Shown here piece by piece: positions 9,753 to 22,290 of a stretch of 64,000 nt of DNA. A program made the translations under genes and the position numbers. How positions within the stretch are numbered: position 1 is the first letter of the stretch; the number at the start of each line of letters is the position of its first letter. The notes beneath the pieces are model-generated. The model worked only from the letters and a program-made list of their open reading frames with translations. It searched no databases and had not been told where the DNA came from. The DNA lies in assembly GCF_003012815.1 (NCBI RefSeq), contig NZ_PXYJ01000003.1, positions 124,001 through 188,000 on the forward strand. Direction: 5' to 3'. This DNA is from Allosphingosinicella vermicomposti (GTDB lineage Bacteria > Pseudomonadota > Alphaproteobacteria > Sphingomonadales > Sphingomonadaceae).

Positions 9753-11075
9753 TCAGGCGCCGTGTTCGTAACCGAGACGGTCGGGCAGCGGCATATCTTC
9801 GCCATCATCTTGCAGGACAAGACCCGATCCTTCGCAGACCTTGCCGATCATGGTGATGGGAAGGCCGAGATCGGCGGCAATCGCTTCGATGCTGTCCCGC
9901 GCAGACGGTGGCGCCGCGAAGAGCAGTTCATAATCATCGCCCGCCTGTGCGGCATAGATCCGCGCCGACCGGTCCGCACCATTCATGCTGAGATAGGCGG
10001 CTGACAGAGGAACCTGGGCGAGATCGATCAGCAGCCTGGCCTTGCTGGCTTGCCCCATACGAAACGCATCGATCAGCAGGCCGTCCGACACATCCATCAT
10101 CGCATGGACAATCGGCGCGAGCCTCTGCCCCGCCGCCAATCGAGGCTGCGGGCGGCGATAGCGCTCGGCGAGAAGAGCGGGCCCTTCCCGTTCGCCCCGC
10201 GCAACGGCGAGCCCCGCGCCTGCATCGCCGATCGTGCCCGTTACGAAGAGAAGATCGCCGGGCCGGGCACCGGAGCGCGCGGGCGCCGCATTGCTTTCCC
10301 CGATCGCGGTCAGCCCCAAAACCCGCGCCGAACCGGACGGCACCGCCACGGTATCGCCGCCCAGCAAAGGCGCGTCGAAAGCCGTCGCCGCCTCAGCCAA
10401 CCCGCCGATGAAGGCGCGATCCCATTCCGCATCGCCGGACAGGCAATAGCCGGTCAGCAACCCAACGGGCCGCGCACCCTTCGCCGCAAGATCGGAAAGG
10501 TTCACCGCGACCAACTTCCACGCAATGTCGGCGGGCGGATCGGTGGGGAGGTAGTGGACGCCCTCCACGACCATGTCGTGGGTCAAGACAAGGTGCCTGC
10601 CCCCGATTTCCAACACTGCCGCATCGTCGAAAAGCCCGCGCGCGGCGGAATGGAAGGAGATCGACCGCAAGGATTGAATAAAGTCGCGTTCTAAAGCCCT
10701 CCCCCTCGATGGGGGAGGGTTGGGTGGGGGTGATGCCGGGCGTAGAGCGGCGGAGATCGTCGTGGCCACACCTGTCCTGTTCCCAAGCACCTCATTGTTC
10801 CAGAAGCGAAGAACACGATAGCCCTCAGCTTCGATCACACGCGTGCGTTCGGCATCCACTTCGTCCGAATGCTGCCCACCATCTACTTCCACAACCAGCT
10901 TTGCCCGATGACTGGCGAAGTCTGCAATATAATGCCGGATAGGGACCTGCCGTCGAAATCGCTGCTCAGGGAAATCCTCCCGCAGCAAGCGCCACATGGC
11001 CTTCTCAGCTTCTGTGGGATTGCAGCGAAGTTCTCGCGACCTCTTCGTCACCTCTGATGGAGGATGATTTTTCAC
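9753..11075 (-). CDS. thiL: Fusion: DUF559 endonuclease-like domain + thiamine-monophosphate kinase
   Basis: 440 residues. Residues 1-112 are a DUF559 domain (Vsr-like PD-(D/E)XK fold) with RSRELRCNPTEAEKAMWRLL, FRRQVPIRHYIADFA and the signature VVEVDGGQH. Residues 113-127 (SPPPNPPPSRGRA) are encoded by the palindromic repeat R1. Residues 128-440 are a complete ThiL/AIR-synthase fold: DDAAVLE, THDMVVEGVHY, LLGGDTV, DVSDGLLID, AGDDYELLFA. ThiL phosphorylates TMP to TPP. The ThiL part has no plausible start codon of its own; a TTG eight codons in would cut off conserved residues. ThiL synthesis therefore seems to depend on reading through from the GTG at 11075. nusB is next upstream, as in normal nusB-thiL operons, so the nuclease module looks like an insertion at the thiL 5' end. 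Confidence 0.85.
   Translation of the reverse strand: MKNHPPSEVTKRSRELRCNPTEAEKAMWRLLREDFPEQRFRRQVPIRHYIADFASHRAKLVVEVDGGQHSDEVDAERTRVIEAEGYRVLRFWNNEVLGNRTGVATTISAALRPASPPPNPPPSRGRALERDFIQSLRSISFHSAARGLFDDAAVLEIGGRHLVLTHDMVVEGVHYLPTDPPADIAWKLVAVNLSDLAAKGARPVGLLTGYCLSGDAEWDRAFIGGLAEAATAFDAPLLGGDTVAVPSGSARVLGLTAIGESNAAPARSGARPGDLLFVTGTIGDAGAGLAVARGEREGPALLAERYRRPQPRLAAGQRLAPIVHAMMDVSDGLLIDAFRMGQASKARLLIDLAQVPLSAAYLSMNGADRSARIYAAQAGDDYELLFAAPPSARDSIEAIAADLGLPITMIGKVCEGSGLVLQDDGEDMPLPDRLGYEHGA
10696..10735 (+). repeat. R1 repeat, copy a (inside the DUF559-thiL frame)
   Basis: A 40-base GC-rich element whose first half is a hairpin (CCCTCCCCC...GGGGGAGGG), followed by a tail ending GGGGGTGATG. 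Its minus-strand reading encodes the proline-rich linker between DUF559 and ThiL. It is the inverted partner of copy b at 11095. Confidence 0.9.
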
Positions 11076-11094
11076 AGGGGCACCTTACGCCAAC

Positions 11095-11134
11095 CATCAC
11101 CCCCACCCAACCCTCCCCCATCGAGGGGGAGGGC
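11095..11134 (-). repeat. R1 repeat, copy b (between nusB and the DUF559 start)
   Basis: The sequence of copy a in opposite orientation, essentially base for base. Together the two copies bracket the DUF559 segment (10736-11094) as inverted terminal-like repeats. Confidence 0.9.
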
Positions 11135-11150
11135 GATAGGCGTAGGGCAC

Positions 11151-11606
11151 TTAGCCCCTCACATCCTTCGCGATCGCGTCGAGGAGGCCGTTCACGAAGG
11201 CGGACTCCTTTTTGTCGTAGAAAGCGTGTGCAACATCGACATATTCGGAAATGACGCTGCCGGTGGGCACGTCGATGCGGGCGGCAAGTTCATAGGCGCC
11301 GGCGCGGAGGATCTGGCGCATGGGCTTGTCGAGGCGGGAGAGGCTCCAGCCGTCCGCGAGGCGCTTTTCGATCATCGCGTCCAACTCTTCGCGGCGCGCG
11401 TCGACGCCGGTCACGACATCGTCGAAGAAGTCCACCTCCGCATCGGTATATTCGACCTCCTCGATCGTCGCGCCGAGCCGATGTTGGTGGAATTCGTGGA
11501 GCAGAGTGCGGAGCGGCGTCTTCTCCATTTCCAGCTGATAAAGGGCCTGCACGGCGGCAAGCCGGGCGGCGGAGCGGGATTTCGAACGGGCGGGAGTCGC
11601 GGACAT
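11151..11606 (-). CDS. nusB: Transcription antitermination factor NusB
   Basis: 151 residues from the ATG at 11606 (MSATPARSKSRSAARLAAVQALYQ). The all-alpha NusB signature includes RLAAVQALYQLE near the N-terminus and VISEYVDVAHAFYDKKESAFVNGLLDAIAKD at the end. NusB binds boxA of rRNA leaders with NusE (S10). An upstream in-frame Met at 11642 lies too far out for the family. Downstream lies the R1 repeat and then the DUF559-ThiL fusion; elsewhere nusB usually precedes thiL directly. Confidence 0.95.
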   Translation of the reverse strand: MSATPARSKSRSAARLAAVQALYQLEMEKTPLRTLLHEFHQHRLGATIEEVEYTDAEVDFFDDVVTGVDARREELDAMIEKRLADGWSLSRLDKPMRQILRAGAYELAARIDVPTGSVISEYVDVAHAFYDKKESAFVNGLLDAIAKDVRG

Positions 11607-11652
11607 GGGCGCGGCATAAAGATGTGATGCGAAAAACGCCACACCCCCCGCC

Positions 11653-19291: not shown

Positions 19292-20299
19292 ATGACCGAC
19301 ATCCCGAACGTGAACCCCGACAGCCGCGCGACCACGGTGATGGACGCACCCGACAAGATCGTGAAGGTGCGCGATTTGTTCGGCGTCGACACGGACATGG
19401 AGGTTCCGGCCTTTTCGGAAGCCGACGAACGGGTGCCGGATATCGATCCCACCTATGTCTTCGATCCCGATACCACGCTCGCCATCGTCGCGGGCTTCGC
19501 CAAAAACCGCCGCGTCATGGTGCAGGGCTATCACGGCACCGGCAAGTCGAGCCATATCGAACAGGTCGCCGCCCGGCTCAACTGGCCGCTCATCCGCATC
19601 AACCTCGACGCGCATATCAGTCGCATCGACCTGATCGGCCGCGACGCCATCGTGCTGAAGGACGGGCAGCAGGTGACGGAGTTCAAGGAAGGCCTCCTCC
19701 CCTGGGCGCTGCAGACGCCGACCGCCCTTGTTTTCGACGAATATGATGCGGGCCGTCCGGACGTGATGTTCGTCATCCAGCGCGTGCTGGAAACGGAAGG
19801 GAAACTGACCCTCCTCGACCAGAATCGCGTGATCCGCCCCAACCCCTGGTTCCGCTTGTTCGCGACGACCAACACGGTCGGCCTTGGCGACACGAGCGGC
19901 CTTTATCATGGCATCCAGCAGATCAACCAGGCGCAGATGGACCGCTGGAACATCGTCGTCACGCTGAACTATCTCCCGGCCGAGACCGAGGCGCGCATCG
20001 TCCTCGCCAAATCTGGCGAATACGACCATGAAGGCGGTCGCCAGGAAGTCGAACGGATGATCAAGGTCGCGGACTTGACGCGCCAGGGCTTCGTCAACGG
20101 CGACATCTCCACCGTCATGAGCCCGCGCACCGTCATCAGCTGGGCCCAGAATGCCCTACTCTTCGGCGACGTCGGTTTCGCCTTCCGCCTATCCTTCCTC
20201 AACAAATGCGACGAAGCCGAACGCCCGCTGGTCGCCGAATATTATCAACGCGTGTTTGGAAAAGATCTCCCCGAGAGCATCGTGGGACGCGCGGGATGA
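19292..20299 (+). CDS. cobS: Cobaltochelatase subunit CobS (MoxR-like AAA+ ATPase)
   Basis: 335 residues with Walker [10 protein letters not shown], Walker [14 protein letters not shown], a sensor region [10 protein letters not shown] and the arginine-rich C-terminal lid. It is close to CobS of alphaproteobacteria throughout. CobS and CobT form the ATP-driven part of aerobic cobalt insertion with CobN. No cobN or other corrin gene lies in this window, so a chelatase role in this organism rests on genes elsewhere. Followed by an R1 repeat pair and then cobT. Confidence 0.92.
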
Positions 20300-20319: not shown

Positions 20320-20427
20320 GCCCTCCCCCTGGATGGGGGAGGGTTGGGTGGGGGTGATGGTCGGCGCAGGGCAGCAATCTTCCCCGGCATCACCCCACCC
20401 CAACCCCTCCTCATCGAGGGGAGGGGC
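20320..20427. repeat. R1 repeat inverted pair (copies c and d) between cobS and cobT
   Basis: Copy c (20320-20359) is in plus orientation and copy d (20388-20427) is its inverse, with 28 bases between them. This gives a REPIN-like palindrome within the cobS-cobT intergenic gap. Sequence matches the two copies around DUF559 at 10.7 and 11.1 kb with a few substitutions. Inside a presumed operon it would form a large stem-loop in the mRNA. Confidence 0.9.
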
Positions 20428-20454: not shown

Positions 20455-22290
20455 ATGCCCCAGGACAACAATCCCCTCGAAACCTTCCGCCAGGCGCTGG
20501 CCGGCGCCTCGCGCGCCCTCGCGCATGAGCCGGAGCTGGAGTTAAGCTTCACCGCGGACGGATCCGGCGCGTCGGGCAAGACCGTGCGCGTACCCGTCCC
20601 CAGCCGCACCCTCCCGGCGCGCGATGTCGCCGAAGCGCGGGGTTATGCGGACGCCGCGGCACTCAAGCTCCGCCACCATGACGTCATCCTCCACAGCAGG
20701 AACGCCCCTGCCGACGACATCGCCCGCGCCGTCTTCGACGCCGCCGAGCAGGCCCGGGTCGAGGCCCTAGGCGCCCGCGCAATGGAGGGGATCCGCGCCA
20801 ATCTCGCCAGCGCATTGGACCTCAAGGTCCGCACCGATCCCATCACCCGCGCCCGCAGCAAGGCTGAAGTGCCGCTGGCTACCGCCGTCCAGCTCCTTGT
20901 CCGCGAACGCCTGACCGGCGACGCGCCTCCCCAAGCCGCGCGCGAGGGGCTGAAGCTCGTTTCCGACTGGATCGAGGAGAAAGCGGGCGCCGATCTCGAC
21001 GCGCTGGGCCTCGCTCTCGACGATCAGGCCGCCTTTGCCAGCCTCGCCACCAAGATGCTCCGCGACCTCGAACTCATTGAGGCCGAGCCCGAATCCGAGC
21101 GCCCCGAAGAGGAAGGCGAGGAGGACGAGGAAGGCGACACCTCTGAAACCGGCGAAGGCGAGGAAGAGGAAGAAGACGAATCCGGCGGCGGCGAGGGCCA
21201 GTCGGAAATACGCGGCGAGCCGGAAAAGGGCGAAGAGGAAGAGAGCGAAACCGATTGGTCCGAAGAGGACATGTCGGAAGCCGCCGAGGGCATGGCCGAG
21301 GATGCGGAGGAAGGCATGATGCCCGTCCGTCCCAACCGCCAGCTGTCGGATCTCACGCCGCAATTCGATTATCAGGTCTATACCGACCGCTTCGACGAGA
21401 TGGTCGAGGCCACCGAGCTTTGCGACGAGGAGGAGCTAACGCGCCTCCGGTCCTATCTCGACCAACAGCTCGTCCACCTGCAGGGCGCGGTGACCAAGCT
21501 CGCCAACCGGCTCCAGCGCCGCCTGATGGCGCAGCAGGCCCGCTCCTGGGATTTCGACCAGGAAGAGGGGCTGCTCGACGCCGCCCGCCTCGCCCGCGTG
21601 GTCATCAACCCCGCACAGAGCCTGTCCTACAAGATCGAGCGCGATACCGAGTTCAAGGACACGGTCGTCAGCCTGCTCATCGACAATAGCGGTTCGATGC
21701 GCGGCCGCCCCATTTCGATCGCCGCCATCTCCGCCGACATCCTCGCCCGCACGCTCGAACGTTGCGGCGTGAAGGTGGAGATATTGGGCTTCACCACCCG
21801 CGCGTGGAAAGGCGGCCAGTCCCGCGAGAAATGGCTGAGCCAAGGCCGCCCGCCATTGCCTGGCCGCCTCAACGACCTGCGCCACATTCTCTACAAGAAA
21901 GCCGACGAACCCTGGCGCCGCGCGCGCAAGAATCTCGGCCTGATGATGCGCGAGGGGCTCTTAAAGGAAAATATCGACGGCGAAGCTCTGCTCTGGGCCC
22001 ATAACCGCCTGCTCGCCAGGGCCGAAGAACGCCGCATTCTCATGGTCATTTCGGACGGGGCCCCGGTCGACGATTCAACCTTGTCGGTGAACAGCGGCAC
22101 CTATCTCGAGCGCCATCTGCGCCAGGTCATCGGCTGGATCGAAAGCCGCTCGCCCGTCGAGCTCGCCGCGATCGGCATCGGCCATGACGTCACCCGCTAT
22201 TACGAGCGCGCCGTCACCATCATGGATGCCGAACAATTGGGCGGGACGATGATCGAACAGCTGGCGGGATTGTTCGACGCTCGCACATAG
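20455..22290 (+). CDS. cobT: Cobaltochelatase subunit CobT
   Basis: 611 residues. An N-terminal domain is followed by a very acidic low-complexity linker at about residues 205-280 (runs of E/D with G and S). A VWA domain follows with the MIDAS motif DNSGSM near residue 408, and [10 protein letters not shown] further on. CobT pairs with CobS to power metal insertion by CobN. The acidic linker is normal for the family. Start ATG at 20455; 155 bases from cobS because of the R1 pair. Confidence 0.92.

Follow-up and report, generated by a model that had tools for sequence, protein, structure and literature searches.

Results

A DUF559 nuclease gene runs in frame into thiL

We analysed a stretch of 64,000 nucleotides of the genome of Allosphingosinicella vermicomposti (contig NZ_PXYJ01000003.1, positions 124,001 to 188,000; hereafter the window), in which a gene for a DUF559 nuclease, enclosed by two inverted copies of a palindromic repeat called R1, continues in frame into thiL. 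The fused open reading frame (ORF; 9753-11075, minus strand) begins with GTG and encodes 440 amino acids. Pfam recognizes DUF559 at residues 9-111 (E 5.5e-33; 113.5 bits for a curated cut-off of 20.6) and the two ThiL domains AIRS (150-260) and AIRS_C (271-423). The nuclease domain corresponds to residues 1-112 (10740-11075, minus strand), as supported by Pfam, the homologue of a congener, the alignment and the fold matches described below. It is followed by a linker of 15 residues (113-127, PASPPPNPPPSRGRA), which is the translation of the inner R1 copy (10691-10744), and by the ThiL part (9753-10691, minus strand), which has no ATG of its own near the usual start. The outer R1 copy (11086-11139) is inverted relative to the inner one. 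These terminal inverted repeats, 54 nt each and 91% complementary, form the 5' (outer) and 3' (inner) ends of a putative mobile unit of 449 bp (10691-11139, minus strand), which we define from its inverted arms and from the general architecture of DUF559 loci: a nuclease gene between two repetitive extragenic palindromes (REPs). The operon neighbour upstream, identified from the ORF list and Pfam, is nusB (11151-11642, minus strand).

Genomes are designated below by G numbers, G000 being that of the window, and loci by L numbers. In the congener G053 the frame is open across the nuclease, R1 and ThiL as in the window, with amino-acid identities between the two genomes of 79% for DUF559 and 70% for ThiL. 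The ratio of nonsynonymous to synonymous differences per site (pN/pS, NG86 method) is 0.23 for DUF559, 0.39 for ThiL and 0.10 for NusB, and both domains of the fusion look constrained. Along 42 nt of the linker, 41 are identical in G000 and G053, while the synonymous divergence dS alongside is 1.3 and 1.0; the R1 repeat of the linker thus appears more alike than its surroundings. Since G053 carries the same fusion with constrained domains, a sequencing accident is unlikely, and an assembly or frameshift artefact was rejected because of this conservation. In the window, codon 9 of the ThiL part is a TTG preceded by a purine-rich stretch. In G053, neither ATG, GTG nor TTG is present among ThiL codons 1-36; rare non-standard ThiL starts may operate.

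An earlier note, made from the sequence of the window alone, had described DUF559 as joined in frame to a complete ThiL through a translated R1 linker, with R1 inverted upstream of DUF559 and nusB as the upstream neighbour. All of this is borne out, and the fusion, which the note thought resequencing might undo, is conserved in a second species. The limits given for the feature were 9753 and 11134: the former stands, and the latter moves to 11139, where the upstream repeat ends. The statement that thiL has no start codon is correct for an ATG near the usual position and has to be qualified by the TTG at codon 9.

Between nusB and the outer R1 hairpin (11134-11150), about 15 bp (GTGCCCTACGCC, gene strand) are absent from G053. 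This stretch looks like the interior of other R1 doublets of this genome and is possibly the remnant of an earlier R1 doublet.

Fold and presumed active site of the nuclease

Residues E24, D52, E63, D65, H69 and D74 are invariant in 15 aligned DUF559 members, including that of the window. Judging from their spacing compared with that of residues of VsrA, a DUF559 protein of Caulobacter, E24, D52, D65, H69 and D74 presumably form a Vsr-type active site; the VsrA authors equate a set of residues with the active site of Vsr (PMC12907096). A profile search retrieved 3HRL (1.1e-34) and 3R3P, titled homing endonuclease I-Bth0305I (3.5e-4). The predicted fold (pLDDT 89.9) matches 3HRL, I-Bth0305I as second-best and, more weakly, Vsr. 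According to Pfam, the nuclease part contains DUF559 with a weak PF18741 match, and no transposase domain. No match to the Y1 transposase (PF01797) was obtained in G000, G053, G152 or G168; such a match exists in 11 of 26 genomes of the genus, among them G164, G166, G158 and G171, all of which hold tails of R1. The gene boxed by REPs is a DUF559 gene and not a Y1 (HUH) tyrosine transposase gene, which separates it from the REP-associated tyrosine transposases (RAYTs) and their REPtrons.

Inverted ends are a general property of DUF559 loci

To score the ends of a locus, we reverse-complemented the 200 bp that follow the domain and aligned them locally with the 200 bp that precede it, allowing an overlap of 20-30 nt; the best alignment gave the end score, and ends scoring at least 20 were called strong. 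DUF559 is present in 127 of 149 genomes of the family and in 93 of 289 of the class. We took 90 family loci from the best-scoring listed DUF559 matches, with long open frames included on purpose, so that they are not a random draw. As many as 76 of them score at least 20 and 82 at least 15, with a median of 32.5; the 8 loci below 15 include L001, which belongs to the window's genome. Random intervals in the same loci (n=90) gave a maximum of 13.5, end pairs drawn from different family loci a median of 11.5, and the flanks of 63 other genes in family loci never reached 20, one being at 18.5. Strong ends were also found in 17 of the 30 best-scoring class loci (control maximum 14) and in 60 of 79 scorable loci out of 80 taken from named genomes (control maximum 13.5). 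Removal of L300 (run of N) and L299 (run of C) brings the latter count to 59/77. L102, which is not a DUF559 locus, and L249, which lies near a contig end, were left out of the counts. Some of the named loci coincide with places in the other sets: by contig and position L234 equals L220 and L257 equals L006, and identical ends are shared by L283 and L202 and by L269 and L206. Among the high scorers are Gammaproteobacteria, a Caulobacter (L304) and a Nitrospirae genome (L294).

The general unit therefore consists of an inverted REP, a nuclease of about 115 amino acids and an inverted REP, with a median length of 459 bp over 159 different units. This set, also used for target-site duplications, excludes units scoring below 22, with N runs or with identical ends.

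Some single loci deserve mention. In Sphingomonas parapaucimobilis (L128), a REP-boxed DUF559 gene lies between sufB and sufC, inside the iron-sulphur cluster operon. On pSymB of Sinorhizobium meliloti (L125), a DUF559 gene has near-identical palindrome doublets of 114 nt on both sides, and L129 is similar. In Escherichia coli, ycjD (L122), a DUF559 gene between sapF and fabI, has C/G-rich palindromes downstream only and a different long hairpin upstream. Some genomes lack the gene. The palindromes that follow it are similar in overall build, and 41 bp of them are also present at other places, such as beside tkt; for the whole query, the median is 4 places per genome. The 2.4-kb ycjD query is present over at least 80% of its length in 3362 of 5426 genomes. 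No clean empty site could be obtained for ycjD: the two records without it that we examined carry an efflux-gene cluster after sapF. The E. coli record NZ_CP141089.1, filed as a plasmid, is 4.9 Mb long and looks like a chromosome.

R1 hairpins and nuclease-free doublets in the window's genome

A 21-nt part of R1, searched with at most 3 mismatches, has 3 matches in the window for an expectation of 0.00 (100 shuffles). The genome (2.51 Mb, 6 contigs) contains 33 R1-type hairpins for 2 DUF559 genes. Four pairs of R1-type hairpins lie 81-83 bp apart and form doublets like those known as REPINs (REP doublets forming hairpins). One more such pair, a nuclease-free doublet, is in the window itself (20321-20425), between two ORFs (19292-20299 and 20455-22290) that we take, from their protein sequences, to be cobS-like and cobT-like; it leaves about 20-30 bp to the ORF on each side.

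In the contexts of 20 places and of the window, no GTAG occurs at the foot of the R1 hairpin. Several R1 copies do contain this word (CTAC on the opposite strand) farther in, past the G-rich tail; CGTC is likewise found inside several copies, and neither strand of the 45-nt R1 end has it. In many copies (L164-L183), GTAG or, on the opposite strand, CGTC lies some 8-30 nt inward of the G-rich tail (ACGTAGG / CCTACGTCG). Both are tag words of two known REP super-families, and in R1 they stand away from the hairpin foot.

The second DUF559 gene of this genome, L001 on contig 4, presumably sits between two ribonucleotide-reductase-like genes. DUF559 genes with such neighbours are also found in G044 and G167 (L033 and L222; NrdB in L222 is a Pfam match, the other identities being our assumption). 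The gene may have inserted here long ago, or this position may be a target hit more than once.

Nuclease lineages tend to have end types of their own

We examined 56 loci from genomes with at least two sampled DUF559 genes. In 49 of them, the two ends of a nuclease match each other better than any end of another sampled DUF559 of that genome. Across genomes, nuclease identity correlates with end similarity (rho 0.229, 76 loci; reached in 0 of 999 permutations): the median end similarity is 0.83 for nucleases at least 60% identical (39 pairs) and 0.27-0.33 below 50% identity. Within the genus, the own-pair score is at least 20 in 24 of 32 loci. At least one R1-type end (score at least 20) accompanies all 8 nucleases of a clade supported at 100/97, hereafter the R1 clade, versus 1 of the 24 others, several of which share other end types. 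R1-clade nucleases adjoin different genes in different congeners. Three of them are at nusB-thiL; the remaining neighbours we take to be lexA-like in G160, G153 and G171, UDP-galactopyranose-mutase-like in G170 and acetolactate-synthase-like in G167. In G171, the lexA-like neighbour is visible only in a shifted frame.

Palindrome load follows the number of DUF559 genes. Over 149 genomes, the count of a general hairpin pattern correlates with that of DUF559 genes (rho 0.58, p 1.5e-14, with phylogeny uncontrolled), while the backwards pattern used as a control does not (rho -0.005); of the 54 genomes with at least 20 hairpins, 53 carry DUF559. The R1 tail, searched with at most 1 mismatch in 26 genomes of the genus, was counted 27 times in G053, 20 in G000, 13 in G164, 8 each in G152 and G166, 6 each in G158 and G171, and 4 in G167; four others have 1-2 copies, 14 have none, and the control search gave 0 matches.

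The nusB-thiL site with and without the unit

A ThiL match was found in 58 of 59 family genomes. Among the best 30 family thiL loci, which we read, a nuclease precedes thiL only in G000 and G053. Of the other 28, 23 have an ATG or GTG in frame no more than a few codons from the usual start, 3 have a TTG and 2 none of these codons. We then searched the 26 genomes of the genus and read 25 thiL loci, classing the gaps by eye. The nusB-thiL gap is nuclease-free in 22 of them and holds a nuclease in three: fused in G000 and G053, not fused in G168. In G168 the unit has R1 ends and thiL retains its own ATG a few bases after R1; capture of thiL is therefore not obligatory.

Other repeats occupy the same gap in several congeners. 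G163, G170 and G164 have a nuclease-free inverted pair of palindromes of another type, and G161 and G158 a single palindrome of that type. A different inverted repeat pair (CCCGAGCGnAGTCGAGGGGCG), from another repeat family, is present at the same spot in G151 and G150 (L139, L140), and the long gap of G162 has other inverted repeats. Most remaining gaps showed no palindrome by eye, such as that of G129, which is 2 nt long. In a tree of NusB and ThiL (23 genomes), G129 is the sister of G168 (98/97), apart from G000 and G053 (100/99). Because of the 2-nt gap of this sister, the nucleases at thiL would result from two insertions or from repeated loss. An approximately unbiased (AU) test on the nuclease tree did not reject a single clade of the three (p 0.33).

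Units open into, or lie within, other genes

The nuclease frame usually enters or passes the 3' REP, no stop being found before it in 134 of 160 units selected by the same criteria as the 159 above. In G044, a unit separates an rpsP-like gene from rimM, and its frame continues into RimM. The only other available genome of this genus, G124, shows the unfilled site: the rpsP stop, six bases, and the ATG of rimM. By comparison, the unit of G044 replaces 16 bp including this ATG. An early in-frame GTG is kept in the rimM of G044, and independent initiation there is possible. Both thiL and rimM, which lack the ATG of their relatives and are open in frame with a nuclease, appear to have been captured.

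Pfam scans revealed further in-frame joins: to a precorrin-8X methylmutase without Met at the join (L289) and, with a Met at or before the host part, to a RecF/SMC-type ATPase (L291), NrdB (L222) and an FAD dehydrogenase (L021). Other units lie inside genes with host domains on both sides, namely a class I tRNA synthetase (L248) and a TRCF gene (L287) of one Rickettsiales bacterium, presumably valS-like and mfd-like respectively, and a CobN gene of Devosia (L301). For a zinc carboxypeptidase gene (L272), a clear host match is found only after the unit. The valS-like gene contains a second, nuclease-free doublet in frame, whose end matches that of the unit at 37 of 38 positions. Reading frames thus pass through palindromic repeats both in the linkers of ThiL and RimM and in the inserts of the valS-, mfd- and cobN-like genes. 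Pfam scans of the units in frame revealed neither an intein nor a splicing domain; no search for introns was made.

Discussion

We consider it likely that the feature is one copy of a general selfish unit of about 450 bp, in which a Vsr/homing-type DUF559 nuclease gene is boxed by its own inverted REPs. Comparison of the genomes shows a common architecture, a wide occurrence, ends linked to the nuclease lineage, dispersed nuclease-free REPINs, and filled and unfilled sites. The earlier note had asked whether most DUF559 genes are flanked by inverted R1 copies; inverted palindromes do flank them, far above controls, each lineage having its own, which is not always R1. The nusB-thiL sites without the module that the note had asked about exist in the genus and the family, mostly with thiL's own start. 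As for its proposal of a mobile unit that captured the translation of thiL, the flanks and the unfilled sites support it; from them we infer that the unit is mobile, with the reservation that the unit of G168 leaves the thiL ATG in place. Its allusion to RAYTs holds as an analogy, the enzyme not being a tyrosine transposase and the genome having no Y1 match. Our best reading is that the DUF559 nuclease would do here what RAYT transposases do elsewhere.

The nuclease would recognize and cut the REP pair that belongs to it, which would probably take the form of hairpins in extruded or single-stranded DNA; the REP-bounded piece would then be patched by host repair into breaks elsewhere. Each type has few nuclease copies and many doublets. 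As with RAYTs, this suggests that the enzyme acts on REPINs in trans; the nuclease unit itself would seldom move. That no target-site duplications are seen, and that a small piece of the target is lost at rimM, would be better explained by cutting and host repair than by classical transposition. A unit that supplies the start of an important gene would be hard for the host to lose.

Several observations weigh against this proposal. No movement was seen, and a nuclease alone has no strand-transfer chemistry. No target-site duplication was found in 159 units: the longest direct word shared by their flanks averages 3.50 nt, for a null of 3.41 (sd 0.08) reached by 29 of 200 shuffles. The end score is under 20 in 14 of 90 family and 13 of 30 class loci, and L001 has a palindrome pair on its downstream side only. 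Genomes with one DUF559 gene do not exceed DUF559-free ones in hairpins (median 2 versus 3.5), and G049 has 82 palindromes and no DUF559 match. Tails and nucleases of the R1 type do not always coincide, which counts against a strict one-to-one rule: G152, a single contig, has 8 R1 tails and R1 ends at none of its 3 DUF559 loci; among the loci read, no R1-clade nuclease was identified in G164, G166 and G158 (13, 8 and 6 tails); and G160 and G170 have R1-clade nucleases, that of G170 with an in-frame stop, yet no R1 tail at up to 1 mismatch. Finally, joint descent of the gene and its flanks would alone yield part of the co-variation of nucleases and ends.

The main rival is a spread by homing between REPs, in which a break at or beside a REP is followed by recombination with a REP-flanked copy that turns the REP site into a nuclease-bearing one; units would in this way home into REPINs. 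The second-best structural match, I-Bth0305I (sequence E 3.5e-4), is a homing endonuclease; three congeners have nuclease-free palindrome pairs, of another type, in the very nusB-thiL gap; and the R1 linker is near-identical while neighbouring codons have diverged, as under gene conversion. This explanation meets with difficulty at rpsP-rimM, where the unfilled site is palindrome-free and the filled one has lost 16 bp of it, and in the valS-, mfd- and cobN-like genes, where in-frame units lie within coding sequence and no earlier REP is expected. We regard it as rather unlikely. It is quite improbable that DUF559 is a domesticated repair nuclease, i.e. a Vsr-like mismatch-repair enzyme kept by the host, with palindromes that are regulatory or accidental. 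The presumed active-site residues are conserved and Caulobacter VsrA is needed for the SOS response without a cytosine methyltransferase (PMC12907096); such a role leaves unexplained the lineage-matched end pairs, the changing locations, the dispersed doublets and the insertions in unrelated proteins.

We give very little credit to the idea that another enzyme, e.g. a RAYT-type Y1 transposase, moves the REPs, and that DUF559 genes are passengers trapped between two of them. REPINs elsewhere have been linked to RAYTs (PMC3116915), and the 11 genus genomes with a Y1 match include the R1-tail holders G164, G166, G158 and G171. Yet the two genomes richest in R1 (G053 and G000) and G152 have no such match, and many proteobacterial genomes have members of one gene family enclosed by inverted palindromes, with lineage-related ends. 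Random trapping should yield many gene families, although no scan was made for other boxed families. It seems hardly credible that ThiL starts on its own inside a fusion due to chance read-through or to an error of sequencing or assembly: the TTG at codon 9 of the window would offer such a start, but in G053 the fusion is equally open, both domains are constrained and ThiL codons 1-36 include no ATG, GTG or TTG.

Returning to the REP-boxed nuclease as a selfish unit, a wider proposal, for which we see the chances as even, is that DUF559 forms a previously unrecognized, bacteria-wide class of mobile elements. Such elements would write their own palindromes, drive repeats where RAYTs are absent, above all in Alphaproteobacteria, and invade genes in frame; they would persist as read-through domains of important enzymes (ThiL, RimM, ValS, Mfd), tied to the survival of the host. 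DUF559 genes are mostly named as a domain of unknown function or an endonuclease-domain protein. We found no link of DUF559 to REPs among open-licence papers, searched by title and start of abstract, which argues only weakly that none exists. If every lineage of DUF559 acts on its own REP, how such repeats spread could be tested directly with a 45-nt oligonucleotide and a protein of some 115 residues. Through captures of host genes, a selfish unit would gain a simple means of escaping loss, and new domain fusions would arise.

Among known systems, REPINs, RAYTs and REPtrons come close: they share with the DUF559 units the dispersed inverted palindrome doublets, an enzyme gene among its own REPs, and enzyme types that go together with REP types (PMC3116915, PMC3733652). 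The enzyme is a Y1 HUH transposase there and a Vsr-type nuclease here. RAYT REPs have GTAG at the hairpin foot, whereas R1 has none at this place and, in part of its copies, has the word further inside; the ends of DUF559 units are C/G-rich hairpins with a G-rich tail, and the nuclease frame generally extends into or beyond the 3' REP. CGTC REPs, found mostly in Alphaproteobacteria, are described as lacking a dedicated transposase (PMC3733652).

The DUF559 (PF04480) and Vsr-like nucleases, including VsrA and NGO0050 (3HRL), have the domain and the presumed active site in common with the unit. In the part of the text available, VsrA is treated as a repair-type nuclease, its authors propose a Vsr-type repair, and the word 'palindrom' does not occur (PMC12907096). 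With I-Bth0305I (3R3P) the unit shares the fold, a distant sequence similarity and the logic of a selfish nuclease; that protein belongs to a mobile intron according to its record, whereas here REP ends stay in frame and no intron or intein was seen, with the limit on introns given above. DDE-type insertion sequences also have terminal inverted repeats, but no target-site duplication was found in the 159 units, and Pfam gives no transposase domain in the nuclease part. Finally, Rickettsia palindromic elements and other in-frame bacterial miniature inverted-repeat transposable elements (MITEs) are likewise palindromic repeats read in frame in or next to coding sequences; they are called non-autonomous (PMC2229807), whereas the valS-like gene of the Rickettsiales bacterium holds a nuclease unit together with a doublet of near-identical end.

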